A stretch of DNA of 64,000 nt, taken from the NCBI GenBank assembly GCA_018241505.1, contig JAFEDS010000038.1, positions 1-64,000 of the forward strand. Direction: 5' to 3'. Below, piece after piece: positions 27,791 through 55,082 of the stretch; the first letter of the stretch is position 1, and each line of letters starts with the position of its first letter. Made by a program: the position numbers and the translations under genes. Below the pieces are notes generated by a model that ran no database searches, was not told where the DNA came from, and worked only from the letters and a program-made list of their open reading frames with translations. Origin of the DNA: Pseudomonadota bacterium. GTDB lineage: Bacteria; Pseudomonadota; Gammaproteobacteria; Steroidobacterales; Steroidobacteraceae.

Positions 27791-28429
27791 ATGCCGCATG
27801 ACCACGACCACTCCGGCGAACCGGGCGCGCTTGGTGAAATGGAGCTCCACGTCCGCGCGTTGCGGACTGTTCTGGAGCAGAAGGGCTATATCGACCCCGC
27901 CGCGCTCGATGTCCTGATCGACACCTACGAGACGAAGGTTGGCCCACGAAACGGGGCGCGCGTGGTCGCAAAGGCGTGGACGGACGACGCCTACCGAAAA
28001 TGGCTGTTTAAGGATGCGACCGCCGCGATTTCCTCACTCGGTTACCACGGCCGGCAGGGGGAGATGATCGTTGCCCTGGAGAACACCGAGTCGATTCACA
28101 ACCTGGTGGTGTGCACGCTTTGTAGCTGCTACCCCTGGCCCGTCCTCGGCCTGCCGCCAACCTGGTACAAGAGCGCGCCTTTCCGGTCGCGCGCAGTGAA
28201 AGATCCGCGCGGAGTACTGGCTGACTTTGGCGTCCAGTTGCCTGCATCGGTTTCCATCCGGGTGTGGGACTCCACGGCTGAGGTGCGCTACCTCGTGATT
28301 CCGAAGCGGCCGAAGGGCAGTGAGCGTCTCACTGAAGAACAACTGGCAGACTTGGTTACGCGCGATTCGATGATCGGTACAGGGTTGGCGAAGATACCCA
28401 CACCGTCCGACTCCCATCACGGGCCATGA
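27791..28429 (+). CDS. nthA: Nitrile hydratase alpha subunit, cobalt type
   Basis: Alpha subunit of nitrile hydratase, which hydrates nitriles to amides. The metal-binding claw is C108-T-L-C-S-C113 followed by [10 protein letters not shown]; threonine after the first cysteine marks the cobalt class (iron enzymes have serine). C111 and C113 are the cysteines that become sulfinic and sulfenic acid. Length 212 is normal. An N-terminal HDHDH stretch might bind metal. It is followed by the beta subunit and activator; an amidase gene, the usual partner, is not within this window's cluster. Confidence 0.95.
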
Positions 28430-28492
28430 GCAACCCGTTCCACACCCTCAACACCTTAACCCGCGGCAATGCGACCGCTGGCCCCACGGCAT

Positions 28493-29155
28493 ATGACCTA
28501 CGTGTCCCACGCTGATCTAGGCGGGCGAGACGGCCACGGTGCCGTGACGCCTGAACCCGAAGGTGAGTTGTTCCACGCGAACTGGGAGCGCATGGCTTTA
28601 GCGGTAACGCTGGCCATGGGCGCCACCGGCACATGGAACATTGATGAAAGCCGGAGTGTTCGTGAGACGCTCTCAGATTACCCCTCACTCACCTACTACC
28701 AGCTTTGGATCAAGGGTTTGATTGAGCTCCTCAAGAGGCATGATCTGGTTGCCGCGGATGAATTTGCCGCGGGCGCAATGCTTCACCCCGCGCGGCCGGT
28801 GAAGCGTGTGCTGCGGGCGGCTGACGTGCCTGCAGCTCTAGCGCAGGGGGCGCCTACGCTGCGCTCGACTCACTCGCGCGCGCGGTTTGCCGTTGGGGAC
28901 CGTGTGGTAACTCGCGCCACGGGGGCGAATCACCACACTCGATTGCCCGCGTATGCGCGCGGGAAGAAGGGACGCATTGCGCACGTTTACGGGGCGCATG
29001 TGTTCGCTGACACTCACGCGCAAGGGCTGGGGGAGCAACCCCAGTGGCTGTACAACGTGGTATTCACAGCGCCTGAGTTGTGGGGGGCGAGTTGTGACGC
29101 AACCTCCACTGTGTCGATCGACGCCTGGGAGTCGTATTTGGAGCCCGCTCCGTGA
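28493..29155 (+). CDS. nthB: Nitrile hydratase beta subunit
   Basis: Beta subunit that completes the nitrile hydratase active site. The N-terminal motif DLGGRDGHGAV and YQLWIKGLIELL are typical, and the C-terminal SH3-like barrel carries RFAVGDRVVTR, HTRLPAYARGKKG and YNVVFTAPELWG. The ATG at 28493 is preferred over 28469 because homologues begin a few residues before DLGG. Length 220. It overlaps the activator gene by 4 bases (GTGA). Confidence 0.93.
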   Translation: MTYVSHADLGGRDGHGAVTPEPEGELFHANWERMALAVTLAMGATGTWNIDESRSVRETLSDYPSLTYYQLWIKGLIELLKRHDLVAADEFAAGAMLHPARPVKRVLRAADVPAALAQGAPTLRSTHSRARFAVGDRVVTRATGANHHTRLPAYARGKKGRIAHVYGAHVFADTHAQGLGEQPQWLYNVVFTAPELWGASCDATSTVSIDAWESYLEPAP

Positions 29156-29502
29156 GTGGTGAAGGACCGCCTGAGCCTGTGTTTCGCGAGCCGTGGGAGG
29201 CGCAGGCGTTTGCCATGACCGTACTCTTGCACGAGCGCGGACTGTTCACGTGGGGTGAGTGGGCGCAAGCACTTGGGGCACAAATCGCCAGTGCCGCGGG
29301 ACCCCGCACCGCCGCGTGCGATCCCGCGGCTGAGAAGTCTTACTACCAACATTGGCTGGCCGCACTTGAGTCGCTGGTGGCTGCGAAGGGCGTGAGCTCG
29401 GCGGACGAGCTCACGCGCTACCAACGCGCGTGGGAGCACGCCGCGCATCGGACGCCTCATGGGCAATCCATTGACCTGCAGCCACAGGACCTCGGCGGGT
29501 AA
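29152..29502 (+). CDS. Nitrile hydratase activator/accessory protein (P14K type)
   Basis: A 116-residue protein similar to the N-terminal half of the beta subunit (EPWEAQAFAMTVLLHERGLFTWGEWAQAL, YYQHWLAALESLV). Such proteins help load cobalt into the alpha subunit by subunit swapping. The start is GTG at 29152 overlapping the nthB stop; its own stop shares one base with the ATG of the following barrel gene (TAATG), so the four genes are probably one transcript. Confidence 0.85.
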   Translation: MSGEGPPEPVFREPWEAQAFAMTVLLHERGLFTWGEWAQALGAQIASAAGPRTAACDPAAEKSYYQHWLAALESLVAAKGVSSADELTRYQRAWEHAAHRTPHGQSIDLQPQDLGG

Positions 29503-33527: not shown

Positions 33528-34112
33528 CTACAAAAACTGCGGCGTCAGCGCCACCCCCGGCTCGAGCGTGTCTATCAGCACCTCCCGCCGCACAATCGCA
33601 AACGACCGATCCGTCACCCGCAACCGGTCGCGCCGCTCGGCACTCCACGCCGAGTTGGCCGACCCCTCGTGACTGATATGCATCACGCGCAAATAACTCA
33701 CCACGTCATACTCATTGCGGCAATGCGCAAATGACACACTGACGTTCGTTACGAACCGGCGGGTGGCCGGAAGGTTGGCGCCCGCGCCCCGCAGCTCGCG
33801 CCCGGTCCGCTGCAGCAGTGCGTCCCGTCCCTGGTCAACATATTCCGAGGCACCGCAGCCATCGCATTGCCGTTGCCCGAGGCAATTGCACACACTGTAG
33901 GCGATGTCGCGCGACAGCAAACCCGCCCACTGATCAAAGCAGCGGTGATCCAATAGGAGTGCTTCGTAGATGAGAAACTGTTGAATTTCCGAGTAAATCT
34001 GTGGATTCACAGGCATGAAGGGCTGTGGCTTCCACGGCTTGGGTTGAATGGCTACCGCCGTCTGCTGCATCGACTTCGAACCCCCATTCCACGGTCCTGA
34101 CGGACTCTTCAT
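33528..34112 (-). CDS. Aromatic-ring-hydroxylating dioxygenase beta subunit
   Basis: A 194-residue NTF2-fold small subunit of ring-hydroxylating oxygenases. IQQFLIYEALLLDHRCFDQWAGLLS, RRFVTNVSV and REVLIDTLEPG-like C-terminus are family-typical. The central insertion has an unusual cysteine group (VCNCLGQRQCDGCG) not normal for this family. No alpha subunit is adjacent; the only Rieske alpha gene in the window is 16 kb away and of a type that usually works without a beta subunit. Start is 34112 or, equally likely, the ATG at 34070. Confidence 0.78.
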   Translation of the reverse strand: MKSPSGPWNGGSKSMQQTAVAIQPKPWKPQPFMPVNPQIYSEIQQFLIYEALLLDHRCFDQWAGLLSRDIAYSVCNCLGQRQCDGCGASEYVDQGRDALLQRTGRELRGAGANLPATRRFVTNVSVSFAHCRNEYDVVSYLRVMHISHEGSANSAWSAERRDRLRVTDRSFAIVRREVLIDTLEPGVALTPQFL

Positions 34113-34223: not shown

Positions 34224-35216
34224 ATGATCCGGCGCGGCATCTCCATCTACAGCTTTCAGGAAAAGTACTACCGGGGCGAGATGTCGCTGCAGGACTGCCT
34301 CGCGGCGACCGCGAAAATGGGCGTCCGCGGGTTCGAGATGCTGTCGGACCAGATGATCCCGGGTTATCCCAGCATCACCTACAACCTGTCGGATGAGTTC
34401 CTGGACGCCTGGGGTGGCTGGCTGGAGCAGTATCGCGTCGAGCCGATCGCGTTCGATGTCTACGGCGAAACCAAGCTCTACAAGAACCGCAGAGTCAGCA
34501 ATAACGAGGTCGTCAGCGAGCTGCGCGAGTTGTTGAAGACGGCGCAGGCCCTCGGTTTCAAGATCCTGCGGCTCACATTCCACCTGCCGATTGAAGTGGT
34601 GGAGATGATGATCCCGTACGCGGAAGAGGCCGGGATCAAGCTCGCGATTGAAGTGCACGCACCGCATCTGCTGACCGGGGAGTGGGTGCAGAAGAACATC
34701 GAGCTGGCGCAACGCAAGAACACCAAAAACCTGGGTCTCATGCCGGACCTGGGCATCTTCTGCAAAAGCATCCCCCACCTGGTCATCGCCGAGGCGCTGC
34801 GCGAAGGCGCCACACCACGCATTGTCGACTACCTGGGCAAGGTGTACCACGAGCGCCCGCTACCCACCGACCTGATGGAAAAGATCGATGCGTTGGGTGC
34901 CAACGAGGTAGACCGGTGGTTGGCATTGCGTATCCAGATCGGGGTGTGGACCTGGCACGACCCGAAGAACCTGTTGACCTACATGCCCTACACATTCCAC
35001 ATCCACGGCAAGTTCTATGAAATGAACGCCAATCTGGTCGAGCCCGAAGTGGCGTACGAACAGATCATGCCGACACTGATTGCCGGCGGCTACAACGGTT
35101 ACATCATGAGCGAGTACGAAGGCCAGCGGCTCACTCACGGTGTCGACATGGGTTACGACGAAGTCGAACAGGTGCGCAGGCACCAGGCCATGTTAGCCAA
35201 CTACCTGGAGCAGTGA
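34224..35216 (+). CDS. C-glycoside deglycosidase-like alpha subunit, set 1 (TIM barrel)
   Basis: A 330-residue cytoplasmic TIM barrel of the sugar phosphate isomerase/epimerase superfamily. Metal-site residues appear in order: E143 and H145 (IEVHAP), D175 (MPDLGIF), H259 and H261 (HIHGKFY), E297 and E299 (SEYEGQ). Together with the small DUF6379-type gene that overlaps it by 4 bases, it resembles the two-subunit DgpB/DgpC and CarB/CarC enzymes that cleave the sugar-aglycone C-C bond of 3-oxo-C-glycosides. No Shine-Dalgarno is obvious before the ATG. Substrate is inferred, not shown. Confidence 0.8.
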   Translation: MIRRGISIYSFQEKYYRGEMSLQDCLAATAKMGVRGFEMLSDQMIPGYPSITYNLSDEFLDAWGGWLEQYRVEPIAFDVYGETKLYKNRRVSNNEVVSELRELLKTAQALGFKILRLTFHLPIEVVEMMIPYAEEAGIKLAIEVHAPHLLTGEWVQKNIELAQRKNTKNLGLMPDLGIFCKSIPHLVIAEALREGATPRIVDYLGKVYHERPLPTDLMEKIDALGANEVDRWLALRIQIGVWTWHDPKNLLTYMPYTFHIHGKFYEMNANLVEPEVAYEQIMPTLIAGGYNGYIMSEYEGQRLTHGVDMGYDEVEQVRRHQAMLANYLEQ

Positions 35217-35629
35217 TCGTGGCCGCGGGAAACGTATTCGGATACGGCAGCTACATGCTTTGCGACGACGGTTTCCGTAACGTCGAGGAGAATGGCAGGC
35301 GGATCGGATTTCAACTGCGCATGCGGCTTGCGAATTATCGCGGTTACCTGCTCTCCCAGATCGAGGATATCCGCATCAGCGTGGATGGCGACGCGATTCC
35401 CCGTAAGGACATCCGGTTCGCCATCGGCGGCAAGACCTATACGCTCGATGAGATGGAAGAGGTGGTTGATAACCGCTGGGAACTGCGGCAGGTCGCTACA
35501 GTGACCTGTCTGAAGCCCGGTGGACTGACTGCAGGCGAGCACGAAGTCAGTGCCGAAGAGCACATCCGCGCGTCTTATATTCCAATGGTTGCCGTAGCGC
35601 GGCTCACCAGGACCCTGCGCCTCGCCTGA
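35213..35629 (+). CDS. C-glycoside deglycosidase-like beta subunit, set 1 (DUF6379 type)
   Basis: A 138-residue beta-rich protein starting at GTG 35213 inside the alpha stop (GTGA). The pattern GFQLRMRLANYRGYLLSQIEDIRISVDG, then RKDIRFAIGGKTYTLDEMEE, then LKPGGLTAGEHEV is that of the small subunit of C-glycoside deglycosidases. Two paralogues in this window (36879-37253 and 38477-38938) share the same frame of motifs. It probably binds the alpha barrel and shapes the active site. An inverted repeat covers its stop codon. Confidence 0.8.
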   Translation: MIVAAGNVFGYGSYMLCDDGFRNVEENGRRIGFQLRMRLANYRGYLLSQIEDIRISVDGDAIPRKDIRFAIGGKTYTLDEMEEVVDNRWELRQVATVTCLKPGGLTAGEHEVSAEEHIRASYIPMVAVARLTRTLRLA

Positions 35630-35654
35630 CGCTTACGACACCTGAGGCGCAGGG
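35613..35654. terminator. Inverted repeat across the set 1 stop codon
   Basis: CCCTGCGCCTC at 35613-35623 and GAGGCGCAGGG at 35644-35654 are perfect 11-base inverted arms around a 20-base loop containing the stop codon of the beta gene. No T-tract follows. It may end the set 1 transcript or stabilise its 3' end. The remaining 245 bases to the convergent set 2 alpha gene contain only a weak short frame. Confidence 0.5.
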
Positions 35655-35899
35655 CCGGAACAGCAGGCGGCGTAGTCCCGCGAGCAGCGCGCCGGCAACC
35701 AGCCCTGCCAGGCCGAAACGCTGCACGGCGCTAACGATGCGGGGATCGGGCTCATCTCGAAGCGGATTGTCGAATACCATGTTCATGGCGCGACTGTGCT
35801 TCTCGGCGCGGCGAACGCCCAGTGTCCTTAGTCACAGTCGCCGCAGGATGGTCCCCCGCCCACCTAGGGGGCGTGGCGAGCGGGGGACCGGGGGGACCT

Positions 35900-36877
35900 T
35901 CAGTGCGCGGCTAGAATCCTCCGGCACATGGCCTGGTGACTCTCGATCATCTGGAACGCATCCGCGTCCGAATACATGTGACCTTCCCATTCGCTCGACA
36001 TGTAACCTGTGAATCCGCCGTCGCGGAATAACGGCAGCAGGGCGGGGTAGTCGATCGCTTCCTCATTGCCCTGGGCATCGAAGCCGAAGAACTTCCCGTG
36101 GATGTGCACGACTTCGGGCATCAACTCCAGCCAACTGCGCGGCGCCTGCTTGCCGAACATCGGGAAAATCAGGCTCAACTCATTGAGCTGGGCATCATCG
36201 AAGCCGCTGGCACGCGCCTTCTCCTTGTACTGCATCATCCGCTTGTAGGCATCGCCCTCGCCGTGCCAGGTGTCCATGGCCATGGCAATGAGGTCCGCGG
36301 GCACACCCTTGGCGCGGACGAACTCGAGGAAGCTGGGAGGAACGGTGCGCGCCGTCGAGCTGAAATCCGGAATCCATCCCAGGTAGGGTGAGCGAACCTG
36401 CGCGTACATCTCGCGATACTGGAGGACATCGGGGTGGTTCGCGTGTTGCGGAGCGTGGATCTCCAGACCCAACTTCACGTTGAGCTTCTCGGCCAGCGGC
36501 ACCAGGCGGCGGATGACATCCGGTCCGGCGCCATACTGATAACGCGCCACCGGAAAGCCGAGTTTTGCCGCGGCACGGATCTGCGGCTCGTGATAGGCCA
36601 CCATTTCATCATCCGACATGACACGCCCGCGGCGGATTTCCTGATCGGCGTTGATGGCGAGCGAGGTGGGCACGAGCTGGTATTGTGCCACGAGCTCCTT
36701 GAAGCGGGCCGCAAACTCATCGGTGACGACGGGAAAGCCGCGGATGCTCTGAAAGCCCACAATCTCCAGGCCCGGGCCGGTGCCGCGGGCGGCGGTCTGG
36801 GCCAACAGATCCTCGAAGCTGTAGCGGCGTGACAGATACTCGTTGGTCAGCGCGTACAGAGTCGTTCCGAGCTTCAT
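35900..36877 (-). CDS. C-glycoside deglycosidase-like alpha subunit, set 2 (TIM barrel)
   Basis: A 325-residue paralogue of the set 1 alpha subunit with the same metal-site order: E139 and H141 (LEIHAP), D171 (IPDFSS), H258 and H260 (HIHGKFF), E296 and E298 (SEWEGH). There is no signal peptide. It follows its beta gene with one intervening base, the reverse of the set 1 order. The pair is read from a promoter region carrying a TGTAATCCATTACA operator, so it is probably induced by the LacI-type regulator's ligand. Confidence 0.8.
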   Translation of the reverse strand: MKLGTTLYALTNEYLSRRYSFEDLLAQTAARGTGPGLEIVGFQSIRGFPVVTDEFAARFKELVAQYQLVPTSLAINADQEIRRGRVMSDDEMVAYHEPQIRAAAKLGFPVARYQYGAGPDVIRRLVPLAEKLNVKLGLEIHAPQHANHPDVLQYREMYAQVRSPYLGWIPDFSSTARTVPPSFLEFVRAKGVPADLIAMAMDTWHGEGDAYKRMMQYKEKARASGFDDAQLNELSLIFPMFGKQAPRSWLELMPEVVHIHGKFFGFDAQGNEEAIDYPALLPLFRDGGFTGYMSSEWEGHMYSDADAFQMIESHQAMCRRILAAH

Positions 36878-36878
36878 A

Positions 36879-37253
36879 TCAGCGTGCCTGCAGGTTTTTA
36901 CGATCGCGGGACACCCGCTTCAGGCCCCGGATGTAAGGCGGATACAGGTTGAGAGTCACGCTGACTTCATGCTCGCCGCCGCGCGGGGCGGCGGTCTCAA
37001 CGTTGAGGTAGGCCGAATCCAACACAAACCACACTTTGTCGACCTGCTCCGCCATGTCGGCGAGGGCATAGGCGCGCCCCTCCAGCTCAAAGGTAACTTG
37101 GGAAGGATCGATTACCTGGCCGTCGATGGCGACTTCGCCCACCTCAACCGTCGACACCGGCAGGGAACGGTACCAGGGCAGGCGGACATCAATGCGATAG
37201 CCGCGGGCAGTTGTTTTGAGCCCGTTGTCGCTGATGACCCGTGAAGTTTGCAT
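36879..37253 (-). CDS. C-glycoside deglycosidase-like beta subunit, set 2 (DUF6379 type)
   Basis: A 124-residue small subunit starting at the ATG at 37253, just below the operator at 37262-37275. Conserved elements are ARGYRIDVRLPWYRSLPVSTVEVGEVAIDGQ, VTFELEGRAYALADM and GGEHEVSVTLNL. The open frame runs back to 37502 but would cross the operator and the lacI start, so that extension is rejected. It has a basic C-terminus (VSRDRKNLQAR). It is transcribed before the alpha gene. Confidence 0.8.
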   Translation of the reverse strand: MQTSRVISDNGLKTTARGYRIDVRLPWYRSLPVSTVEVGEVAIDGQVIDPSQVTFELEGRAYALADMAEQVDKVWFVLDSAYLNVETAAPRGGEHEVSVTLNLYPPYIRGLKRVSRDRKNLQAR

Positions 37254-37261
37254 GGCGTCAA

Positions 37262-37275
37262 TGTAATCCATTACA
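37262..37275. promoter_or_regulatory. LacI-family operator 1
   Basis: TGTAATCCATTACA, a palindrome with perfect 6-base arms and a two-base centre. It lies 8 bases before the set 2 beta ATG and 114 bases before the divergent lacI ATG, so binding would block the beta/alpha transcript and could also autoregulate lacI. Identical sequence recurs at 38423, 43686 and 43783. Confidence 0.88.
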
Positions 37276-37389
37276 CGATCTGCTACAAGCTTCGTATGTG
37301 GCTGCCTGAACAAAGGCTTATACTTGTGCATCGCGGCGTAATCCGGCCGGACACCGGACCCGGCCGCGGCACACTGAACGGACCTAACG

Positions 37390-38406
37390 ATGCCAACGAT
37401 CCATGATGTCGCAGCACGAGCTGAAGTCTCGACTGCCACCGTTTCGCGCGTACTGAGCAATCCCGAGAAGGTCTCCGAGGCCACGCGCCGCCGTGTGCTC
37501 AAAGCGGTCGATCAGCTCGGATATTCACCCAACGCGGCCGCCAAGAGCCTGCGCACCCTGACCACACGGAAGCTGCTCGTTACGGTGCCGGATATCGCCA
37601 ATCCCTTCTTCTCGCTCATCATCCAGGGCATCGAGGAAGCCGCTTTGCGCGAGGGTTACTCGGTCATGCTGGGCGACACTCACCACGATCCGCAACGTGA
37701 GGAACGGTATGGCGAAATGCTCCTACGCCGCGAGGTCGATGGCCTGATCTTCCTGGGCCACAGCATGAGCAAGTCGGTGGGCGGCATGATGAAGAAAAAT
37801 CAGCTCGCTCCCATTGTCAACGGCTGCGAGTACAGCCCCAGCCTCGGCGTGCCGAGCGCGCATGTTGATAACGAGGCGGCGGCGTATGAGGCCATGAATC
37901 ATCTGTATGGGCTCGGCCATCGTCAGATCGGTGTCCTCACGGGGCCCCTCGCCAGCCCGTTGAGTCGCGATCGCCTGCGAGGTGTCCAGGCCTGTGCGAA
38001 GGAAAACGGCGCCGCCAAGCAGGTGATGGTGGTCAACGGCGATTTTTCCATTGAATCCGGTATTGCGGGGGCAGCGCGCCTGTTTGCGCAACAGACACCG
38101 CCGACCGCGGTTTTCTGCTTCAACGACGAAATGGCGATCGGCGTATTGGACTATGCCAGCCGGGTGGGCCGCTCCGTGCCGGAGTCGCTGTCGGTCATCG
38201 GCTTTGACGATATCCGTTTCTCGCGTTACATGCGGCCGGCGTTGACCACCATCAGTCAACCCATGCTGGATATCGGGCGTGAGACGGTCCGTTTGTTGCT
38301 TGGAGTGTTGCAAGGTACGGTGACCACTCCCGTGTCCATCACATTGCCGCACAAGTTGGAAATCCGCTCGAGCACCGGCGCGCCGCCCCGGCCGCCCAAG
38401 CCCTGA
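37390..38406 (+). CDS. LacI-family transcriptional regulator
   Basis: A 338-residue sugar-responsive repressor. The N-terminal helix-turn-helix (TIHDVAARAEVSTATVSRVLSNPEKVS, residues 3-29) and hinge helix (PNAAAKSLRT) are intact, followed by a periplasmic-binding-protein-like ligand domain (IANPFFSLIIQGIE, FCFNDEMAIGVLD, IGFDDIRFSRY). Operators at 37262 and 38423 flank it on both sides, and three more lie further right. The inducer is probably a sugar or 3-oxo-sugar released by the locus. Confidence 0.95.
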   Translation: MPTIHDVAARAEVSTATVSRVLSNPEKVSEATRRRVLKAVDQLGYSPNAAAKSLRTLTTRKLLVTVPDIANPFFSLIIQGIEEAALREGYSVMLGDTHHDPQREERYGEMLLRREVDGLIFLGHSMSKSVGGMMKKNQLAPIVNGCEYSPSLGVPSAHVDNEAAAYEAMNHLYGLGHRQIGVLTGPLASPLSRDRLRGVQACAKENGAAKQVMVVNGDFSIESGIAGAARLFAQQTPPTAVFCFNDEMAIGVLDYASRVGRSVPESLSVIGFDDIRFSRYMRPALTTISQPMLDIGRETVRLLLGVLQGTVTTPVSITLPHKLEIRSSTGAPPRPPKP

Positions 38407-38422
38407 GGCTCGACAACCGCCG

Positions 38423-38436
38423 TGTAATGGATTACA
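38423..38436. promoter_or_regulatory. LacI-family operator 2
   Basis: TGTAATGGATTACA, the exact reverse complement of operator 1, located 17 bases after the lacI stop and 40 bases before the ATG of the set 3 beta gene. It should control the run beta 3, alpha 3, MFS transporter and Gfo-type dehydrogenase. Confidence 0.88.
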
Positions 38437-38476
38437 TTCCGGCGCGTCAACAGAGCTCTCGTGCCGAAGGTGAGCG

Positions 38477-38938
38477 ATGCAAGATCCATACGTGATCATG
38501 AACACCGGGTTCAAGAACACGGTGGCCGGGGGAACGGCGAGGGGTTATCAGCTCGACATCCGCATTCCCTACTACCGCAGTGTGTACCTGTCCGCCATCC
38601 ATTCCCTCGACCTCGCAATGGACGGCACCCCCGTCCCCCAACAAGACATCCGCATCGTCGTTGCCGGAAAGACCTTCACCATCGCCGAGATGTTTGAAGC
38701 CGACAGCGTACGGTGGGGATTCGGCGACCCCGCCACGTTGCTGGTGACAAAGGCCGGCGGCCTGACGCCCGGCATTCACACCGTCAAGGTGGGTATCGTC
38801 GTGCGCAAGTCCTACCTGCCTGCCACCGACCCGGAACATCTGTACGCGGATTTCCCGGGACTGTGGGAAAACGGCAAGTACCACACCTACATCGAAGGTC
38901 CGACTGTCGTTACCCGCAAGATGACGTTGGTGCAGTGA
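38477..38938 (+). CDS. C-glycoside deglycosidase-like beta subunit, set 3 (DUF6379 type)
   Basis: A 153-residue small subunit, slightly longer than its paralogues at the C-terminus (YHTYIEGPTVVTRKMTLVQ). Family elements are ARGYQLDIRIPYYRSVYLSAIHSLDLAMDG, QQDIRIVVAGKTFTIAEM, RWGFGDPATLLVTKAGGL and GIHTVKVGI. AAGGTGAG precedes the ATG. It has no signal peptide although its partner alpha 3 has a Tat-like one. First gene of an operator-controlled run of four. Confidence 0.82.
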   Translation: MQDPYVIMNTGFKNTVAGGTARGYQLDIRIPYYRSVYLSAIHSLDLAMDGTPVPQQDIRIVVAGKTFTIAEMFEADSVRWGFGDPATLLVTKAGGLTPGIHTVKVGIVVRKSYLPATDPEHLYADFPGLWENGKYHTYIEGPTVVTRKMTLVQ

Positions 38939-38948
38939 GGGCAAGCGA

Positions 38949-40040
38949 ATGATTTCACGCAGAGATTTCATGGGCGGCGTGGCCGCCGCGGGCGCGGTGG
39001 CGGCATCCTCGGCGGCACTCGCGGCCACGAAGAAGGCCGGCAGCCCGGCGCCCGCCGCTGCCGCCGGCAAGATCCGCCGCGGCGTCGCGACCTATTCCTA
39101 CCAGGAAGAAGTGTTTGTCCACACCATGACCGTGGAAGACTGCATGCGCGAGATGTCCGACATCGGCGCGAAGCACTTCGAGCTCATTGCCGAGATGTTG
39201 GTTCCCAACTTCCCCAATCCCAGCACCCAGTGGGTGGATCAGTGGCACGGTTGGATGCAGAAGTACGACCTGCATCCGGCCTGCTACACCCAGTTCATTG
39301 ACAGCTTGCGCACCAAGACTCACGTCCTGGACGTGGAAGAGGGCGTCCAGACGATGATGCGTGACATTCGTCTCGCCAAGCTGCTGGGCATTCCGCGGAT
39401 CCGCGCCCTGGTCGGCACGCCAATCGACATTCTCGAAGCCACCATTGCGCACCTCGAGAAAGAAGACATCTGGATGGGCGTGGAAATTCACTTCCCCATT
39501 CCCCTCGAGGGTCACCTGGTGGAGCGCTTGCGCAAGCTCGCGGAAAAGACCGACCATTTCGGCTTCGTGCCGGATTTCGGCATCTTCCAGAACAAACCCA
39601 ACCCCTACCTGCGCGAGCGCATGATCCGGGACGGGGCCATCACCGCCGAGGCGGCTCACTTCGTGGAAAACTCCTGGGAGAACAAGGTTCCCAAGGACAA
39701 AGTGAAGGCCGATATCGCCAAGATGTCGGCGGGCCCCGGCGCCAACGGCTTCACTGAAGTCACCTACATGATCCAGCCGCAGGATCCCCGTGACCTGCTG
39801 CCTTTCATTTCCAAGTGCCGCCACATCCACGGCAAGACCTGGGGGCTCACCGAGGACTGTGTGGACCCGGCGATCGATCTGACCCAGGTCATCCCGGTGC
39901 TGCAGAAGGGCGGCTACGACGGCGCCATTGCCACTGAATACGAAGGCCAGCGCATGGTGCAGGACGTGTATCCTTTCAGCTCAGTGGAGATGGTCCGCCG
40001 TCACCAGGTGATGTTGCGGAGGCTGTTGGGAGAGATCTGA
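38949..40040 (+). CDS. C-glycoside deglycosidase-like alpha subunit, set 3, with Tat signal
   Basis: A 363-residue TIM barrel with N-terminal SRRDFMGG and a hydrophobic Ala-rich stretch to about residue 27, a twin-arginine export signal. Metal-site residues match sets 1 and 2: E179 and H181 (VEIHFP), D209 (VPDFGIF), H292 and H294 (HIHGKTW), E330 and E332 (TEYEGQ). It starts 10 bases after beta 3 and is followed 4 bases later by the MFS gene. Export through Tat fits metal insertion in the cytoplasm before folding. Localisation of the alpha/beta complex is an open question. Confidence 0.8.
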   Translation: MISRRDFMGGVAAAGAVAASSAALAATKKAGSPAPAAAAGKIRRGVATYSYQEEVFVHTMTVEDCMREMSDIGAKHFELIAEMLVPNFPNPSTQWVDQWHGWMQKYDLHPACYTQFIDSLRTKTHVLDVEEGVQTMMRDIRLAKLLGIPRIRALVGTPIDILEATIAHLEKEDIWMGVEIHFPIPLEGHLVERLRKLAEKTDHFGFVPDFGIFQNKPNPYLRERMIRDGAITAEAAHFVENSWENKVPKDKVKADIAKMSAGPGANGFTEVTYMIQPQDPRDLLPFISKCRHIHGKTWGLTEDCVDPAIDLTQVIPVLQKGGYDGAIATEYEGQRMVQDVYPFSSVEMVRRHQVMLRRLLGEI

Positions 40041-40044
40041 TCGC

Positions 40045-41259
40045 ATGAAGGTCCGGCTGAGCTTGATGATGTTCCTGGAGTTCTTCATCTGGGGCGGCTG
40101 GTTCGTCACCATGGGGAGCTACCTGGGGACAACCCTGTCGGCGAGTGGCTCGCAGATCGGGCTCGCGTATGCGACTCAGTCGTGGGGCGCAATCATTGCG
40201 CCGTTCATCTTTGGTCTGATTGCCGATCGCTACTTCAACGCTGAACGGGTACTCGCGGTAACCCACCTGGTGGGCGGCCTGCTGTTGCTGGCCGTGGCGC
40301 GCTCCGCAAATTTCTCCGCGTTCTACCCGCTGTTGCTCGTCTACATGGTCCTGTACATGCCGACGCTCGCGTTGGTGAATGCGGTCGCATTTCGCCAGCT
40401 TCGCGATCCCTCGCGCGAGTTCTCCACCATCCGTGTGTGGGGCACGGTGGGTTGGATCGTCGCTGGCCTGTGCATCAGCTTCGTCTTCGGCTGGGACTCA
40501 TCCGCGTCGATCTCACAGGGCGCGTTGCGCAACACGTTCGTGATGTGCGGTATTGCTTCGTTGCTGCTGGGTGTCTACAGCTTGACGCTGCCGAAAACAC
40601 CGCCGGTCAGTGGACCCAATCCGCAACTACGTGACATCCTGGGACTGGAAGCGCTGCGTCTGCTGGCGAACCGCAACTTCCTGATCTTCTTTGTCAGCTC
40701 CATTCTCATCTGCATACCCCTGGCGTTCTACTACCAGAACGCCAACCTGTTCCTCACCGAGCTGCACGTTCCCAACGCCACCGGTAAACAGACCCTGGGC
40801 CAGATGTCAGAAGTATTGTTCATGCTGCTGATTCCGGTGTTCCTCAATCGCTTCGGCATGAAGACGACACTGCTGGTGGGCATGCTGGCGTGGGCCGTAC
40901 GCTACCTGCTGTTTGCATTCGGCAATGCCGGTGACCTGGTGAGCCTGCTGCTGATCGGCATCGCCCTGCATGGGGTGTGCTATGACTTCTTCTTTGTCTC
41001 CGGCCAGATCTATATTGATTCCAAGGCCGGACCGCAGATCAAGAGCGCGGCACAGGGATTGATCACGTTGGCGACGTACGGCGCGGGCATGTTGATCGGG
41101 TTCTGGGCCGCCGGGAAAATCACGGATGCGTATCTTGCCGCAGGGGGCGGGCACGATTGGCAGGCCATCTGGCAATTCCCGGCCGCGTTCGCCGCGGCGG
41201 TGTTTGTACTGTTCGCGCTGGCGTTCCGCAATGAGAATGTGCGCTATGAGAAATCGTGA
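40045..41259 (+). CDS. MFS transporter, nucleoside:proton symporter (NupG) type
   Basis: A 404-residue permease with 12 predicted helices. The N-terminus (LSLMMFLEFFIWGGWFVTMGSYLGTTL) and the first loop (GLIADRYFNAERVLAVTHL) are typical of the NupG/XapB subfamily, whose members move nucleosides or other sugar-containing compounds with protons. Set between alpha 3 and the dehydrogenase gene, it probably imports the glycoside or a liberated sugar across the inner membrane. Its stop overlaps the GTG of the next gene (GTGA). Confidence 0.85.
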   Translation: MKVRLSLMMFLEFFIWGGWFVTMGSYLGTTLSASGSQIGLAYATQSWGAIIAPFIFGLIADRYFNAERVLAVTHLVGGLLLLAVARSANFSAFYPLLLVYMVLYMPTLALVNAVAFRQLRDPSREFSTIRVWGTVGWIVAGLCISFVFGWDSSASISQGALRNTFVMCGIASLLLGVYSLTLPKTPPVSGPNPQLRDILGLEALRLLANRNFLIFFVSSILICIPLAFYYQNANLFLTELHVPNATGKQTLGQMSEVLFMLLIPVFLNRFGMKTTLLVGMLAWAVRYLLFAFGNAGDLVSLLLIGIALHGVCYDFFFVSGQIYIDSKAGPQIKSAAQGLITLATYGAGMLIGFWAAGKITDAYLAAGGGHDWQAIWQFPAAFAAAVFVLFALAFRNENVRYEKS

Positions 41260-42392
41260 AACCTGACAGAATCAAGTGGGCCTTGCTCGGTGGCGGCGCG
41301 GACTCACTCATCGGCATCGTGCATCGCATAGCGGCCGGCATGGGAGATGACTACCAGCTCACCGGCGGCGCATTCAACTTCGATTTTCGCAAGAGTCAAC
41401 AGTTTGCGCGCGAATTGGGCCTCGACCCGCGGCGCATCTACGCCAACCTGGATGCCCTGATCGCCGCCGAGAGCGCCTTACCCGCGGCCGAGCGAGTCAA
41501 GCTGGTGACGGTGGCGACTCCGAACTACCTCCATTTTGACATGGCGTCCCGGCTCATCCAGGCGGGATTCCACGTGCTTTGCGAGAAGCCGGTCACGTCG
41601 ACGGCTGCGGAGGCCGAGACCCTGGCCAATCTGCTGAAAGCGCGCCAGCAGGTTTTCGCGGTTGCTCACACTTACACCGGGTACCCGATGGTGCGCCAGA
41701 TGCGCGGCATGATCGCCGCGGGCGCCATCGGCCCTATCCAGAAAGTGGCTGCGCAGTATTACCAGGGTTGGATCAACGCCGTCATTCACGACCCGGTGAA
41801 GCGCAAGACGGTCTGGCGCCTGGACCCGGCGAAGAGCGGGCAGAGCAGTTGTATCGGCGATATTGGCGTGCACGCCTTCAATCTGCTCGAGTACACCACC
41901 GGCCTGCAGATTGAGCAGGCGCTGTCGGATATCGATACGCTCTATCCCGACAATTCACTCGATGTGGATGGCACGGTGCTGCTGCGGCTAGGTCCCCACG
42001 TGAAAGGCGTTTTGTGCGCCAGCCAGATTGCGACTGCGGAAGAAAACAACTTGACCCTCGCCGTGTACGGCCGGACCGGTGCGCTCAAATGGGCGCAGGA
42101 GAATCCCAACCAGCTCGAGTTCCTGCAGGAAGGCAAGCCGCTCACGCTCCTGAAGGCCGGACACGAATACAACCTGCCGCCGGCGCGCGCGGCCACGAAG
42201 CTGCCGGCCGGGCATCCGGAAGGGTTTATTGATGCCATGGGCAACTTGTATCGCGGCGTTGCCAAGGCGATCAACGGCCAGGCGGTGGATGCGGGCGCAT
42301 ACCCCGGGATCGATTCCGGCGTGCGCGGAATGCGGTTTATCGAGGCCGTTCTGCGCTCGTCGCGGAACGGCAATGTCTGGGTGAAGTTGTAG
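41256..42392 (+). CDS. Gfo/Idh/MocA-family sugar dehydrogenase
   Basis: A 378-residue NAD(P)-dependent oxidoreductase. The Rossmann motif is WALLGGGADSLIG, the catalytic lysine lies in CEKPVTS, and the substrate-site D and H in GDIGVHAFNLLE. The GTG start overlaps the MFS stop. In characterised puerarin degradation a Gfo/Idh/MocA enzyme (DgpA) oxidises the sugar 3-hydroxyl before C-C cleavage, so this gene is the best candidate for that step here; specificity is inferred from context. Confidence 0.86.
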   Translation: MKPDRIKWALLGGGADSLIGIVHRIAAGMGDDYQLTGGAFNFDFRKSQQFARELGLDPRRIYANLDALIAAESALPAAERVKLVTVATPNYLHFDMASRLIQAGFHVLCEKPVTSTAAEAETLANLLKARQQVFAVAHTYTGYPMVRQMRGMIAAGAIGPIQKVAAQYYQGWINAVIHDPVKRKTVWRLDPAKSGQSSCIGDIGVHAFNLLEYTTGLQIEQALSDIDTLYPDNSLDVDGTVLLRLGPHVKGVLCASQIATAEENNLTLAVYGRTGALKWAQENPNQLEFLQEGKPLTLLKAGHEYNLPPARAATKLPAGHPEGFIDAMGNLYRGVAKAINGQAVDAGAYPGIDSGVRGMRFIEAVLRSSRNGNVWVKL

Positions 42393-42397: not shown

Positions 42398-43639
42398 TCA
42401 GCTTCGATACGGCTGCCGGCCGAAGCCCTGTACCGCGATTCCCTGCGATCCCAACACATCATGTTGTAGGGAGTACATGGCGGCGGCGGCGGCATCGATC
42501 GCTCGCACGAAGGCCAACGAGCCCGCCAGGATGGGCGCCAGGCGCTCCTTGTCCTGCAGGCGCGCCTGTGGATACTCGTGCTCCAGGACGAGCACGGTCC
42601 TTGCCGGGTCGATATCCAACAACTCGCGGGCCGCCAACTGATGGTCGAGCCAGTCCACCGTCCGGTTTTGCAGGTAACCCAGCGGGTCGTGCCGGGCGGT
42701 GCCGGGCAGCTCGTGCTCGGCAAACACCGTCTGTTTCTTCCAGGCGTTCACCTGGTCGGCCGGGTTGGGGGAGGGCCGGCCCTTGATCCAGTCGCCCCGT
42801 TGCAGCGTCTGGCCGCCATAACCCCAGGCCGAAATACCGCGGGCATCGATGACCTGTCCCTTGACATGAAAGCCGTCAATGAGGAATCCGTAACCCTCGT
42901 CCTTCAGGTACTGAAAGATGGAACGGCTGTCCTGGCCCATCAGGATGGCGTGGGACGGGTCGTAGTGGATCCGGAACTGGTCACCGACCCCGTGACGCTC
43001 GCAGATGCGGTGTAAGGCAATCCACGGGCCGGGTGCGTAAGCCAGGTTGTTGTGCCACTTGTCGGTGGTGGTCCAACCCGGCATGGGGCAATGCTCCACC
43101 CGGAACACCAGGCCGCGGGCCTTGGCTTCGGCCAGCAGCGGCACGAACTCGGATTCGAACATCTCCAGGTTGGCGTCCATTTCAATGTCGGGATTGCGGC
43201 CCACGAAGCCGCAGACAGCCGTAGTACCCAGCAGCACGGCGGCATCGAAGACCCGCAGCATGAATTCCTTCTTGCGCGCCCGGGCGCCGGCATCCGCCGC
43301 CAGCATATTGTCGAAGTAGCCGAGGTCCGACAGGCCAACTCCGGTTTGCCGCATGGCGGCCGCCACTCGCGCGGCGCGCGCCTTCGTGAACGGCTCGCGC
43401 AGGTCGAGCGTGTTGGCGACCGGGTCGAGCATCGCCTCCGGCGGCACGTCGCTCCGGCTCGGATGCAAAGCGGCCGAGAGCTGAATGTTCGGGCTGCCAA
43501 TGTCGCGGGCGAACTGCAACCATTCTTCGACTGCAACATCGGGATCCGCGTCCCGCCTGTCCCGCGCTGTCAATTCCTGCAGTGCCGCCGTCAACAGGCT
43601 CAACTGCATGATTCTGGGCTGAAATTGCTGTACCGCCAT
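42398..43639 (-). CDS. Sugar isomerase/epimerase-like TIM barrel, large form
   Basis: A 413-residue cytoplasmic TIM barrel of the xylose-isomerase-like superfamily. Putative metal-site segments are [11 protein letters not shown] (E, H), [10 protein letters not shown] (D, H), IDGFHVKGQ (H) and LVLEHEYP (E). It diverges from the deglycosidase alpha group in length and motifs. The ATG at 43639 has AAGGA upstream; the frame reaches 43672 at a TTG. It is divergent from the TonB receptor, with operator 3 lying 46 bases before its start. Likely acts on a keto-sugar product. Confidence 0.78.
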
Positions 43640-43685: not shown

Positions 43686-43699
43686 TGTAATCCATTACA
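43686..43699. promoter_or_regulatory. LacI-family operator 3
   Basis: TGTAATCCATTACA, identical to operator 1, 46 bases before the minus-strand TIM-barrel gene (42398-43639). Its centre is 97 bases from that of operator 4, so one divergent control region carries two sites, one for each direction. Confidence 0.88.
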
Positions 43700-43782: not shown

Positions 43783-43796
43783 TGTAATCCATTACA
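43783..43796. promoter_or_regulatory. LacI-family operator 4
   Basis: TGTAATCCATTACA, identical to operators 1 and 3, positioned over the first transcribed bases of the TonB receptor gene and 48 bases before its ATG. Confidence 0.88.
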
Positions 43797-43844: not shown

Positions 43845-46118
43845 ATGAAGCGTAGTTCCGTGGGTGCGGCTGTCATATTTGCCCTGTGGGGCATCCAGGC
43901 CGGAGCGCAGACCGAAACCGCGGAAAGCGCCGCGGCGCCCGCCGAAGGCGGCCTCGCCGAAGTCGTGGTCACCGCCGAGAAGCGCGTCGAGTCCGAGCAG
44001 AAGACGCCCATTTCCATGAATGTCATTTCCGCCGCGGAAATCGCGCAGAAGGGCATTTCGGACTTCGCTTCGCTCGCCACCAATGATACGAGTGTCAACT
44101 TCTCCTCCAACGGCTCCGAGGGCTACCTGACCGTGCGCGGCATCTCGAGCCACGACGTCACCGAAATCGGCGATCCCGCCGTTCCGGTGGTCATCGACGG
44201 CTTCACGACGATTCGCGCCTACGATCTCACGACTTCGCTCTATGACCTGCAGCGGATCGAAGTCCTGCGCGGGCCCCAGGGCACTCTGTACGGACGCAAT
44301 GCCGAGGGCGGCCTCGTCAATGTCATCAGCCAGAAGCCGACGAAGGAGTTCGGTGCCGGCGGCAGCGCCGAGCTGGGCAACTTCAACACGAACAACTTCA
44401 CGGGCTATCTGAATCTGCCGGTGTTTGACAACCTGCAGTTGCGTGTCTCCGGTTCGTCCCGCCGGCACGATGGCTACCGCACCATTACCGCCGAGAACGG
44501 GATCCCCGAATACAAGGCGGATGACGAAGATTCACACTCCCTGCGCGTCCAGGCGAATTATACGCCGTTCGACAATTTCAACGCCTGGTTCCTGTTCCAG
44601 TCCACGCAACTAGGTGGCACCGGCTCCGCCAGCGAAAACATCCTGTTCAACCCGGGCCCGCCGTGCACGGTTGCGACCGCCTACAATCCGACGTGTGCGC
44701 AAGACATTTCGCACGATCGCCCCAATCTGGGCGATCCGCGCCGGTTCCCGCTGTATGCACGCCTGTCCCAGGACATTGACGATAAAGTTTATAAATGGCA
44801 GTTCAGCTACAGTGCGCTGCCATTCGGTACCACTGTCACGTATCTCGGTGGCTACAACAACGTGCAGTGGCACCATGTGTCGCCGATTCCGACCCTGTTC
44901 GGCGCGGACGTCGGCACGCCGACCGTCTTTTTCCAGAACGAGTATCCCAAGACCACCAATCACGAGCTGCGTTTCTCGTCCGACTCCAGCGGCCCGTTGT
45001 TGTGGCAGGCGGGCCTCTACTACTTCGAAGAGCGCAGCACCAATCTCAACAGCTACGGCCAGACCAATCCGGATGGCCCGGATGCCGCGAACCTGCTGTC
45101 CTTTTTCTTCCCGCTGGTGGACACGAAGTCGCACGCCGCGTTCGGCCAGGCTTCGTACAACCTCAACGACGAGAACAAGATCACGGCCGGTGCCCGCTAC
45201 AGCCGCGACACGAAGTCCCGTAACGGAGTCTTCAACCTGGATGCCTTCGGCATCTTCGGCCTCGATCAGACCAATTCATCGGAAAGCAGCAAGACAACCT
45301 TCCACGTGGGTTACGACTGGACGCCCACGAACCGGAACCTGGTGTATGCCAAGTTTGATACAGGCTACAAGCCGGGCGGCTTCACAACCTGCGCTCCGTA
45401 CGATCCGGAGACTGTGAAGGCCGTTGAGGTCGGTTCCAAGAACCGCTTCAGCGGCAACCGAATCCAGGTGAACGCGGCGGCGTTCTACAACAAGTACGAA
45501 AACCAGCAGGTGGCCGCGCTGAGTGCCAGTTGCTCGAGCGGTACGGTGGTGCAGAACGCCGGCTCGTCCAAGATCTATGGCCTGGAAGCGTCGATGAACG
45601 CGCTAGTCACGGAAGATGACAAGGTCGACCTGGGTCTCACCCTGTTGCACGCCCGGTTCGATGACTTCCTTGCTTCCCCGACCAACGGGGCCGCGGCCCT
45701 CCACATGCGGCCCGTGCAGGCGGCTACGGGTGCCGATGGCACGGTGGTCTACAACAATCAGCTCAAGGGCTACATGCTGCCGCAGGCACCGGATGTCACC
45801 CTGGCCCTGGGCTACGAGCACACCTGGAAGCTGACTGCCGACAACGGCCTCAATTTCCGGGCGGAGGCCAAGTACCAGAGCAAGCAGTTCTTCGACTCGT
45901 TCAACTACAACGATTCGGAGCAGGAAGGCTACGCAACGATCAACGCCTACTTCGGCTACTCAACCGAGAAGTGGCGTGTGAACGTGTTCGGTCGCAACCT
46001 CGCCGACAAGGTCTACCTGGTCGATGCTGCTGAAGTAACTACCGGAAGTGCACACACCTATCGCTACGGCTTCGGCGCCCCGCGTACGTTCGGTATCCAC
46101 TTCGAAGGCAACCTCTAA
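43845..46118 (+). CDS. TonB-dependent outer-membrane receptor
   Basis: A 757-residue receptor that takes up substrates across the outer membrane using TonB energy. A signal peptide (1-23) is followed by a TonB-box-like region (GLAEVVVTAEKR), the plug domain (RGISSHDVTEIGDPAVPVVIDG, IEVLRGPQGTLYGRNAEGG) and the 22-strand barrel ending in FGIHFEGNL. GAGGGGG precedes the ATG. Under operator 4 and followed by a Tat-exported sugar-isomerase-like gene, it is the probable entry port for the glycoside. Confidence 0.93.
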   Translation: MKRSSVGAAVIFALWGIQAGAQTETAESAAAPAEGGLAEVVVTAEKRVESEQKTPISMNVISAAEIAQKGISDFASLATNDTSVNFSSNGSEGYLTVRGISSHDVTEIGDPAVPVVIDGFTTIRAYDLTTSLYDLQRIEVLRGPQGTLYGRNAEGGLVNVISQKPTKEFGAGGSAELGNFNTNNFTGYLNLPVFDNLQLRVSGSSRRHDGYRTITAENGIPEYKADDEDSHSLRVQANYTPFDNFNAWFLFQSTQLGGTGSASENILFNPGPPCTVATAYNPTCAQDISHDRPNLGDPRRFPLYARLSQDIDDKVYKWQFSYSALPFGTTVTYLGGYNNVQWHHVSPIPTLFGADVGTPTVFFQNEYPKTTNHELRFSSDSSGPLLWQAGLYYFEERSTNLNSYGQTNPDGPDAANLLSFFFPLVDTKSHAAFGQASYNLNDENKITAGARYSRDTKSRNGVFNLDAFGIFGLDQTNSSESSKTTFHVGYDWTPTNRNLVYAKFDTGYKPGGFTTCAPYDPETVKAVEVGSKNRFSGNRIQVNAAAFYNKYENQQVAALSASCSSGTVVQNAGSSKIYGLEASMNALVTEDDKVDLGLTLLHARFDDFLASPTNGAAALHMRPVQAATGADGTVVYNNQLKGYMLPQAPDVTLALGYEHTWKLTADNGLNFRAEAKYQSKQFFDSFNYNDSEQEGYATINAYFGYSTEKWRVNVFGRNLADKVYLVDAAEVTTGSAHTYRYGFGAPRTFGIHFEGNL

Positions 46119-46132: not shown

Positions 46133-47059
46133 ATGCTGCGCCGGGAATTCCTGCAACTTACGGCTGCAGCAGCGGGTACCGCTGCCGTGGGCACCTCGGC
46201 CGTCTGGCCGAGGCTGGCCCAGGCAGCAGCGCATCGTCCGATCGGCCTGCAGCTTTTTACGGTCATGGCCAACCTCGAACAGGACTTCGAGGGCACGCTC
46301 AAAACGGTCGCGCAAATCGGTTACAAGGAAGTGGAAACCATCGGCGCGTTCGGCCGCGACCCTAAGGTGGTGCGCGGCCTGCTCGACAAATACGGGCTCG
46401 TGACCCCGTCGCAGCACCTCGTGCCGGGCAAGCTGTACGAGCTGTTCAACCAGTTCGTGCAACACAAGGTCTCCGGCCCCGAGATCCAGAAGCTCTGGCA
46501 GCAGACCATGGCCATTGAACGCATCAAACCGGTCATTGAAGAGGGCATCGAGCGCGCGAAAATACTCGGACAGAAGTACATCTGTCTGCAAATCATCTGG
46601 CCCGAGCAGATGGCCACCCGCGAGCTCATGGACGAGTTCTGTAAAGGGTTGAATCTCGCCGGCGAGTTGTGCGCGAAGGCCGGAATGGTGTTCAACTTCC
46701 ACAATCACAGCGACGAATTCAAGCCCATTAACGGCTATGTTCCGTACGACCTGATTGTGAAGAACACCGATCCGAAGACGGTCAAACTCGAGATGGACCT
46801 GTACTGGATCTCCCACGCCGGCCAGGATCCGCTCAAATACCTGGCGGACAATCCGGGGCGTTACAAGCAATGCCACCTGAAGGACAGCACGCCTTCGGGT
46901 GACTTTGAAACGGTCGGCAAGGGCACATTGAACTTTCCGGTGCTGCTGGCGGCCGCGCAGAAAGCCGGCATCGAACATTTCTACGTGGAGTTTGATCGCT
47001 CCACGGACCCGATGCGTGTGACACGCGACTCCTACGAGTATTTGAAGACGGTCATGTAG
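46133..47059 (+). CDS. Exported sugar isomerase/epimerase-like TIM barrel
   Basis: A 308-residue TIM barrel with a twin-arginine-type signal (LRREFLQLTAAAAG, to about residue 32). Putative metal-site residues fall in EVETIGAFG (E), NFHNHSDEF (H), EMDLYW (D), CHLKDST (H) and YVEFDRS (E). It starts 14 bases after the TonB receptor and probably shares its operator-controlled transcript. Likely a periplasmic isomerase, epimerase or lyase on a keto-glycoside; no DUF6379 partner is adjacent. Its last 8 bases overlap the convergent MFS gene. Confidence 0.82.
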   Translation: MLRREFLQLTAAAAGTAAVGTSAVWPRLAQAAAHRPIGLQLFTVMANLEQDFEGTLKTVAQIGYKEVETIGAFGRDPKVVRGLLDKYGLVTPSQHLVPGKLYELFNQFVQHKVSGPEIQKLWQQTMAIERIKPVIEEGIERAKILGQKYICLQIIWPEQMATRELMDEFCKGLNLAGELCAKAGMVFNFHNHSDEFKPINGYVPYDLIVKNTDPKTVKLEMDLYWISHAGQDPLKYLADNPGRYKQCHLKDSTPSGDFETVGKGTLNFPVLLAAAQKAGIEHFYVEFDRSTDPMRVTRDSYEYLKTVM

Positions 47060-50370: not shown

Positions 50371-50447
50371 CGACATTGGAATAAACGATTTTCCGGATGA
50401 CTGGCATCGGCCTACCATCATGCGAAAATCGCGCAAGGGGTGTTGGC

Positions 50448-54986: not shown

Positions 54987-55082
54987 CGCGTCCTCCCTCA
55001 ATATTTGTCGGCCGCCCGGCGCGTCCGCGGCGGCAAAATACTGTACGCTGCAACCGATTTCACAACAACGCGCCCGCGGTAA

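Follow-up and report, generated by a model that had tools for sequence, protein, structure and literature searches.

C-glycosides resist ordinary hydrolysis, and little is known of their fate in natural environments, according to PMC12724307. Here we ask what a member of the Steroidobacteraceae might do with three gene pairs of the C-glycoside deglycosidase (CGD) type lying side by side: whether they are copies of one enzyme, on which glycosides they would act, and in which compartment. The pairs lie in a stretch of 64,000 nucleotides (contig JAFEDS010000038.1 of assembly GCA_018241505.1, positions 1 to 64,000), called the window below, at 34224-35629 (pair 1), 35900-37253 (pair 2) and 38477-40040 (pair 3). 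Each consists of an alpha gene for a TIM-barrel protein and a small beta gene (Table 1). We found this to be a real, well-formed CGD locus. We further consider it probable, with considerable room for doubt, that the region is an island for the use of glycosides, with three non-redundant CGDs (metal-dependent 3-keto-C-glycoside beta-eliminases) at its core, pair 3 acting in the periplasm and LacI-type control exerted through a palindrome, a reading drawn from sequence comparison.

The three gene pairs

The initial annotation had paired each TIM-barrel gene with a small gene of the DUF6379 type, and a profile search bore this out. All three small proteins exceeded the cut-off of the Pfam family CGDB (PF19906, "C-glycoside deglycosidase beta subunit"; 27.6 bits), with 138.3 bits for beta1, 70.5 for beta2 and 117.1 for beta3. 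We take PF19906 to be the former DUF6379; the solved relatives of beta1 returned by a PDB sequence search carry the names DgpB, DfgB or "DUF6379 domain-containing protein". These three genes gave the only CGDB matches in the whole 7.88-Mb assembly, and none of 14 control genomes contained a match.

The alpha proteins all passed the AP_endonuc_2 profile (38.6, 33 and 31.7 bits for alpha1, alpha2 and alpha3, respectively; cut-off, 31.1), and their best PDB sequence matches were without exception CGD alpha chains: 8qvc for alpha1 (E value, 1.4e-73) and alpha3 (3.2e-64), and 7dnm for alpha2 (7.1e-74). Foldseek titles identify 8qvc as the Deinococcus aerius C-glucosyl deglycosidase and 7dnm as AgCarB2-C2. 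NCBIfam models gave no useful name for the alphas or for the neighboring TIM barrels. An AlphaFold 2 (AF2) model of alpha3, made without its first 31 residues from a 48-row alignment, had a mean predicted local distance difference test score (pLDDT) of 94.8 and a predicted template modeling score (pTM) of 0.91. It superimposed on 8qvc with a template modeling (TM) score of 0.92, and Foldseek ranks 1-16 were all CGD chains, the first non-CGD chain having a TM score of 0.61.

The metal-site motifs first noticed in this DNA (E-x-H, PD, HIHGK and S/T-E-x-E) were present in all three alphas. In an alignment of 10 alphas, 3 of them from the window, residues E143, H145, D175, H261, K263, E297 and E299 (alpha1 numbering) were invariant. 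In the register of the alpha2-AgCGD2 alignment, these seven fall on AgCGD2 E147, H149, D179, H269, K271, E305 and E307. In AgCGD2, E147, D179, H269, K271 and E305 are the metal ligands, and mutation of H149 or E307 lowers activity (PMC8563793). The metal ligands (E, D, H, K and E) and the catalytic His/Glu pair were kept in all three window proteins. Reading of the genes also confirmed that the pairs differ in gene order, strand and export signal. The assembly, with a completeness of 93.9% and a contamination of 5.67%, exceeds its listed congeners in size, so the origin of the contig deserves a check.

Origin and frequency of the pairs

The three alphas shared only 23-30% identity with one another and took separate places in a 65-row tree. 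Alpha2 fell in a clade with AgCGD2 (support, 99/99), and alpha3 grouped with a protein from another genus of the family (genome G331; 100/100) and then with one from a Bryobacterales locus (L076; 100/98), whereas alpha1 formed a lone long branch (1.15) with no supported partner. The three alphas are therefore separate lineages that have come together, not duplicates. The pairs do adjoin one another, as redundant copies left by a recent local duplication would. Such copies would hardly be so dissimilar, would hardly take separate tree places, two of them on supported branches with relatives from other genomes, and would hardly differ in gene order and strand; we find this origin scarcely credible. 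Alpha identity and the tree together ruled out recent duplication of the pairs.

CGDB-positive genomes were few at every rank (the genome studied here being counted each time): 6 of 217 in the family, 5 of 396 in the order, and 4 of 398 in the phylum, 3 of these over the cut-off. A query with alpha3 at an E value of 1e-20 against 369 genomes of the class matched only its own genome. Plasmid searches with alpha1 and alpha3 returned 23 records each, every one below 60% identity.

For comparison we kept 80 of 244 loci encoding a relative. The unit counted is the locus, not the genome, and the set includes contigs that are duplicates by length and content (L024/L039 and L026/L048) and loci sharing a contig or genome (L050/L067, L063/L064 and L092/L104). 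At least two CGD pairs were found in 27 of the 80 loci and at least three in 6, with one locus having five; these counts are lower bounds, since many contigs are cut. For a few of the pairs called "fused", the reading frame is over-long. The five-pair locus (L073) is from Goekera deserti and was counted by script, which marked one pair as having both subunits in a single reading frame. Another genome of the family encodes a CGD of 470 amino acids that is a natural beta-alpha fusion, downstream of a TonB receptor (L025, 3181-4593).

The initial annotation held that known C-deglycosylase strains have one or two sets. That statement is out of date: Catenibacillus scindens has four dgpBC sets and C. 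decagia six (PMC11170127), and 6 of our 80 loci have at least three pairs. The same two observations ruled out the three-pair locus as unique. Three pairs in one locus are uncommon, not new.

Substrate class and proposed pathway

The locus had been proposed to serve the breakdown of aryl C-glycosides or related 3-oxo-glycoside eliminations. The CGD family, the pairing, the intact active sites and the clustered TonB receptor all stand, and a 3-oxo-glycoside locus is likely. In the enzyme PuCGE, replacement of beta Tyr39 by Phe lowers C-glycoside activity by >99% and O-glycoside activity by 59%, and the alpha subunit without beta is inactive on C-glycosides (PMC10628242). The equivalent of Tyr39 was invariant in an alignment of six betas including all three from the window, Tyr42 being the aligned residue of beta1. 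We regard the kept tyrosine as the best sequence evidence that the pairs would act on C-glycosides over other keto sugars.

It is also conceivable that at least one pair is a 3-keto eliminase whose substrates are O-glycosides or other keto sugars rather than C-glycosides. A 3-keto-O-glycoside is among the substrates of PuCGE, and Agrobacterium has an analogous operon for O-glycosides (PMC10628242); the Gfo/Idh/MocA and lyase-like neighbors of the window would fit such a pathway as well. Against this, the beta subunit and its tyrosine, which are most needed for C-glycosides, are kept in all three pairs. The alpha/beta-hydrolase gene at 51445, whose nearest PDB relative is 2,6-dihydroxy-pseudo-oxynicotine hydrolase (2jbw), points weakly in the same direction, as its product would fit breakdown of a hydroxyaromatic aglycone. 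Homologues occur in 9 of the 80 CGD loci (7 at ≥50% identity), but the gene is not locus-specific, since 33 of 43 CGD-bearing genomes hold a relative somewhere. We regard action of any pair on O-glycosides or other keto sugars in place of C-glycosides as improbable.

On the preferred reading, in which all three pairs cleave C-glycosides, the substrates would enter through the TonB receptor, and a 3-dehydrogenase would turn them into 3-keto sugars. In each alpha/beta pair, a histidine at the metal site would remove the C2 proton and the beta tyrosine would stabilize the aglycone oxyanion, so that the C-C bond is cut to give the aglycone and 2-hydroxy-3-keto-glucal. The latter may be hydrated by products of the other TIM-barrel genes and reduced by the Gfo/Idh/MocA enzyme. 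Pairs 1 and 2 would act in the cytoplasm.

Predicted export of pair 3

Alpha3 begins with MISRRDFMGGVAAAGAVAASSAALAA, which scored 19.5 bits against the twin-arginine translocation (Tat) signal model TIGR01409 (cut-off, 16.7), and the genome encodes TatC (E value, 5.8e-72). Beta3 cannot carry a signal peptide, because its ATG is preceded, two codons upstream, by an in-frame stop. G331 has orthologues of alpha3 (64% identical) and beta3 (70% identical) with the same signal split. Its genes are ordered on one strand as GLDH3 (with a twin-arginine start), GMC oxidoreductase, beta3, alpha3 (with an arginine-arginine [RR] signal) and Nuc_H_symport, with gaps of 9-22 bp. A second GMC gene of the G331 locus (L023, 6038-7203, minus strand) appears, partly by eye, to be split over two reading frames.

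Similar starts were found at the Bryobacterales locus L076, which has three pairs: its alphas begin with arginine-lysine (R-K)-type signal-like sequences and its betas do not. A scan admitting both RR and R-K types, duplicates included, detected signal-like starts on 5 of the 139 alphas and on none of the 135 betas; an RR-only scan detected 2 of 139 alphas. Beta3 also has an enlarged C-terminal loop after a "SYLP" motif, and only 3 of 124 unfused paired betas reach 150 residues (beta3 and those of G331 and L076). PMC8563793 describes a loop close to the aglycone, to which this one may correspond by its position.

We read pair 3 as a predicted periplasmic C-deglycosidase. Tat would export alpha3 folded, with the signal-less beta3 riding on its signal, and C-C cleavage would take place in the periplasm. 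The 3-keto-glycosides would come from a GMC/GLDH3 dehydrogenase in the same compartment, a source that the gene order of G331 suggests, or, in the genome studied here, perhaps from the cytochrome c/pyrroloquinoline quinone (PQQ) dehydrogenase encoded after the variant palindrome at 56367. The pair would represent a distinct enlarged-loop clade, in one regulon with the TonB receptor. We give this account an even chance of being correct.

Several observations weigh against it. TIGR01409 did not match the alpha3 of G331, so conservation of the signal there rests on the motif of RR plus a hydrophobic stretch. Beyond that, the apparent alpha3 operon ends in a Gfo/Idh/MocA enzyme that starts without a signal, and the 93.9% complete assembly contains no close relative of the G331 GMC protein, the best match being 38% identical. 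The genome does have six GLDH3 genes, each beside a GMC gene, and by eye all but one of these GLDH3 genes begin with a twin-arginine sequence; pair 3 could for this reason have its oxidase encoded elsewhere in the genome, or the oxidase could be the PQQ dehydrogenase. GMC proteins related to that of G331 (≥300 aligned columns) occurred in 18 of the 80 loci. At another locus of the genome studied here (L032, C7:688000-704000), GMC and GLDH3 genes are accompanied by genes for a lyase-like TIM barrel (28%) and a Gfo/Idh/MocA homologue (38%); it is likely a second 3-keto-glycoside locus.

The alternative is that the alpha3 N terminus is not a working export signal, or that alpha3 leaves without beta3, and that no periplasmic C-deglycosidase exists. 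The narrow margin over TIGR01409, the miss in G331 and the signal-less end of the operon would all suit this alternative. Since PuCGE alpha without beta is inactive on C-glycosides, subunits split between compartments would at best be weakly active on O-glycosides. It would leave unexplained an RR motif with a hydrophobic stretch kept in two genera, R-K-type starts on three alphas of L076 with none among 135 betas, and the position of the G331 pair behind a twin-arginine GLDH3 and a GMC dehydrogenase on one strand. Co-export of signal-less partners by Tat (hitchhiking) is, moreover, established for other complexes (PMC4273604). We consider failure of export doubtful, if a serious possibility.

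No exported CGD was found in the literature on C-glycoside deglycosylation combined with twin-arginine or periplasmic, a weak negative since subscription journals were mostly uncovered. The word "signal" is absent from the main text of PMC8563793, and "periplasm" and "signal peptide" are absent from PMC10628242. Export of a CGD enzyme would be new for the family, as far as this limited literature shows.

A palindrome and its candidate regulon

The 14-bp palindrome TGTAATCCATTACA occurs exactly four times in the 7.88-Mb assembly, and all four copies lie in the CGD cluster. At a GC content of 61%, that of the window, the expected number of exact copies is about 0.011, and the backward control contained none. 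Two more copies with one mismatch were found in the genome, the site at C6:86274 being a one-mismatch site. The wider form TGTAANSSNTTACA had six sites in the genome compared with 0.57 expected and one in the backward control. They comprise the four exact TGTAATCCATTACA copies, the site TGTAAAGCATTACA at 56367 before cytochrome c/PQQ-dehydrogenase genes, and one site on contig 17. Five of the six precede CGD, TonB or lyase-like genes. The contig 17 site (L140, 1501-1514) lies 28 bp before a Tat-type TIM-barrel gene whose product is 31% identical to the 46133 protein; this gene, far from the window, is a possible distant member of the regulon.

The 10-kb contig of G331 carries an exact TGTAANSSNTTACA site 55 bp before GLDH3, identical letter for letter to the 56367 site, and a one-mismatch copy 36 bp before beta2. 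For sites with up to two mismatches to TGTAANSSNTTACA, 0.23 are expected on that contig, and 3 of 200 shuffles reached two sites. Among 145 fetched loci, exact TGTAANSSNTTACA was found, besides G331, only in loci of the genome studied here. The LacI-family protein is 80% identical to that of G331 and 74% identical to that of a further genome (G079). Because of the former identity, and because lacI lies between pairs 2 and 3 in both the window and G331, LacI is the likely regulator of the cluster.

The candidate palindrome is thus shared before its member genes and kept in one relative. It suggests that the TonB receptor and two TIM-barrel genes belong with pairs 2 and 3 to one regulon, with a LacI-type repressor, putative from its position, probably controlling them through the exact copies. 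Three points count against this regulon. The wider form was drawn after the sites had been seen; the related G079 region (L027) contained no palindrome in spite of its LacI; and no operator was found before pair 1, where the only candidate was a three-mismatch site; the expected number of sites at least that good in the window is 5.96.

Neighboring genes

The genes around the pairs are listed in Table 1.

Table 1. Positions of the CGD genes, candidate operators and neighboring genes in the window
Feature	Position	Strand	Basis
alpha1, CGD alpha subunit (TIM barrel) without visible export signal	34224-35216	+	AP_endonuc_2, PDB match 8qvc
beta1, CGDB subunit; start overlaps alpha1 stop	35213-35629	+	CGDB profile, alignments
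alpha2, CGD alpha subunit	35900-36877	-	PDB match 7dnm, tree clade with AgCGD2
beta2, CGDB subunit, upstream of alpha2; ATG at 37253	36879-37253	-	CGDB profile
Candidate operator TGTAATCCATTACA in the beta2-lacI gap, 8 bp upstream of beta2	37262-37275	.	Exact match
LacI-family regulator	37390-38406	+	Pfam LacI, 74.4 bits; homologues in G331 and G079 CGD regions
Candidate operator, 40 bp before beta3	38423-38436	.	Exact match
beta3, CGDB subunit	38477-38938	+	CGDB profile
alpha3, CGD alpha subunit with predicted Tat signal	38949-40040	+	TIGR01409, PDB 8qvc, AF2 model, Foldseek
Major facilitator superfamily (MFS) transporter, Nuc_H_symport family	40045-41259	+	407.3 bits
Gfo/Idh/MocA oxidoreductase	41256-42392	+	Family profile, PDB search
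TIM-barrel protein (AP_endonuc_2)	42398-43639	-	Pfam, 46.2 bits, read with two extra codons
Candidate operator between 42398 TIM-barrel gene and TonB receptor	43686-43699	.	Exact match
Candidate operator, 48 bp before TonB receptor	43783-43796	.	Exact match
TonB-dependent receptor	43845-46118	+	Pfam, 126.1 bits
Tat-signal TIM-barrel protein like 3-keto-beta-glucopyranoside-1,2-lyases	46133-47059	+	PDB 8tcd, TIGR01409 over cut-off
Variant candidate operator TGTAAAGCATTACA, 20 bp before cytochrome c gene	56367-56380	.	Wider-form match
Cytochrome c and PQQ-type dehydrogenase (57198) genes	56401-58934	+	Position after 56367 site

The gene at 41256 had been described as a DgpA-like dehydrogenase directly downstream of the pairs. 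Neither part held: the MFS gene sits between it and alpha3, and its product matched DgpA (7xr9) with an E value of 6.4e-7 compared with 1.4e-90 for 3v5n, which leaves kinship at the level of the superfamily and ruled out its identity as DgpA. With homologues in 24 of the 80 CGD loci, it looks like a regular companion of CGDs. It may be either a glycoside 3-dehydrogenase or a 3-keto-sugar reductase.

Among the other neighbors, the TonB receptor likely takes glycosides up across the outer membrane, and the MFS transporter possibly serves sugar or glycoside uptake. The 42398 protein, for which no PDB sequence matched at an E value of 0.01, may act on the keto sugar as a hydratase or an isomerase. 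The closest PDB match of the 46133 protein was 8tcd (3-Keto-beta-glucopyranoside-1,2-Lyase AL1; E value, 2.5e-24). The cytochrome c/PQQ-type dehydrogenase could conceivably be the periplasmic oxidase of the pathway.

Four further groups of genes were seen in the window. A LysR regulator, an extradiol-type dioxygenase (Glyoxalase fold), the 2jbw-like alpha/beta hydrolase and a cupin at 49462-53146 look like a block for the breakdown of aromatics (aglycones). A small ring-hydroxylating dioxygenase beta-type protein is encoded divergently from alpha1 (33528-34112, minus strand); it passed the Ring_hydroxyl_B cut-off and fell below those of the HcaF NCBIfam models, and no alpha subunit was seen alongside. 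An AP_endonuc_2 TIM barrel at 53943-55001 (minus strand), divergent from an MFS gene, has by eye an RR signal-like start that TIGR01409 did not list. Nitrile hydratase alpha and beta genes and a small beta-N-domain gene stand in a row at 27791-29502.

Comparison with known systems

DgpBC/PuCGD, DfgAB/EuCGD, CarBC/MiCGD, AgCGD1/2, PurBC and the Deinococcus aerius CGD have in common an alpha TIM barrel and a CGDB beta encoded by adjacent genes (PMC8563793, PMC12724307). The three pairs described here have the same metal site, His/Glu pair and beta tyrosine. Unlike the known CGDs, they bring three lineages together in one locus, with a predicted Tat signal on one alpha and a palindrome shared with a TonB receptor. 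Several CGD sets per genome are also known from Catenibacillus scindens, C. decagia and P. siccitolerans, the last having two CGD pairs near a glycoside 3-oxidase gene (PMC10646112). Those genomes belong to other bacterial groups, whereas here three divergent pairs lie within 6 kb, with a clustered TonB receptor gene and one alpha with a Tat signal.

The GlycDH/AtOGE operon of Agrobacterium tumefaciens likewise follows a logic of oxidation, elimination, hydration and reduction, and its 3-dehydrogenase GlycDH is co-expressed with a "TAT-pathway signal protein" (PMC10628242). The likeness extends to G331, which has a GMC and GLDH3 pair beside pair 3. We take GlycDH to be a GMC enzyme, and GlycDH with the "TAT-pathway signal protein" to be a GMC plus GLDH3 pair. 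AtOGE differs in that it is described as having no sequence relationship to CGDs and as O-glycoside specific (PMC10628242). The 3-keto-beta-glucopyranoside-1,2-lyase of Alistipes (8tcd, AL1) is distant kin of the 46133 protein, which has a predicted Tat signal and sits downstream of the TonB receptor.

Biological meaning

Two points are of note: the third enzyme, which appears to be exported, and the sharp candidate regulon. With three divergent C-deglycosidases, the locus offers ready candidate enzymes for different aglycones or sites of glycosylation. Thanks to the palindrome, the regulon can be tested directly, and with it the inducing compound. If the prediction for pair 3 is true, export would move C-deglycosylation to the periplasm, near cytochrome-linked oxidases, and would hint at how Gram-negative bacteria might exploit bulky aryl glycosides that never pass whole into the cytoplasm.

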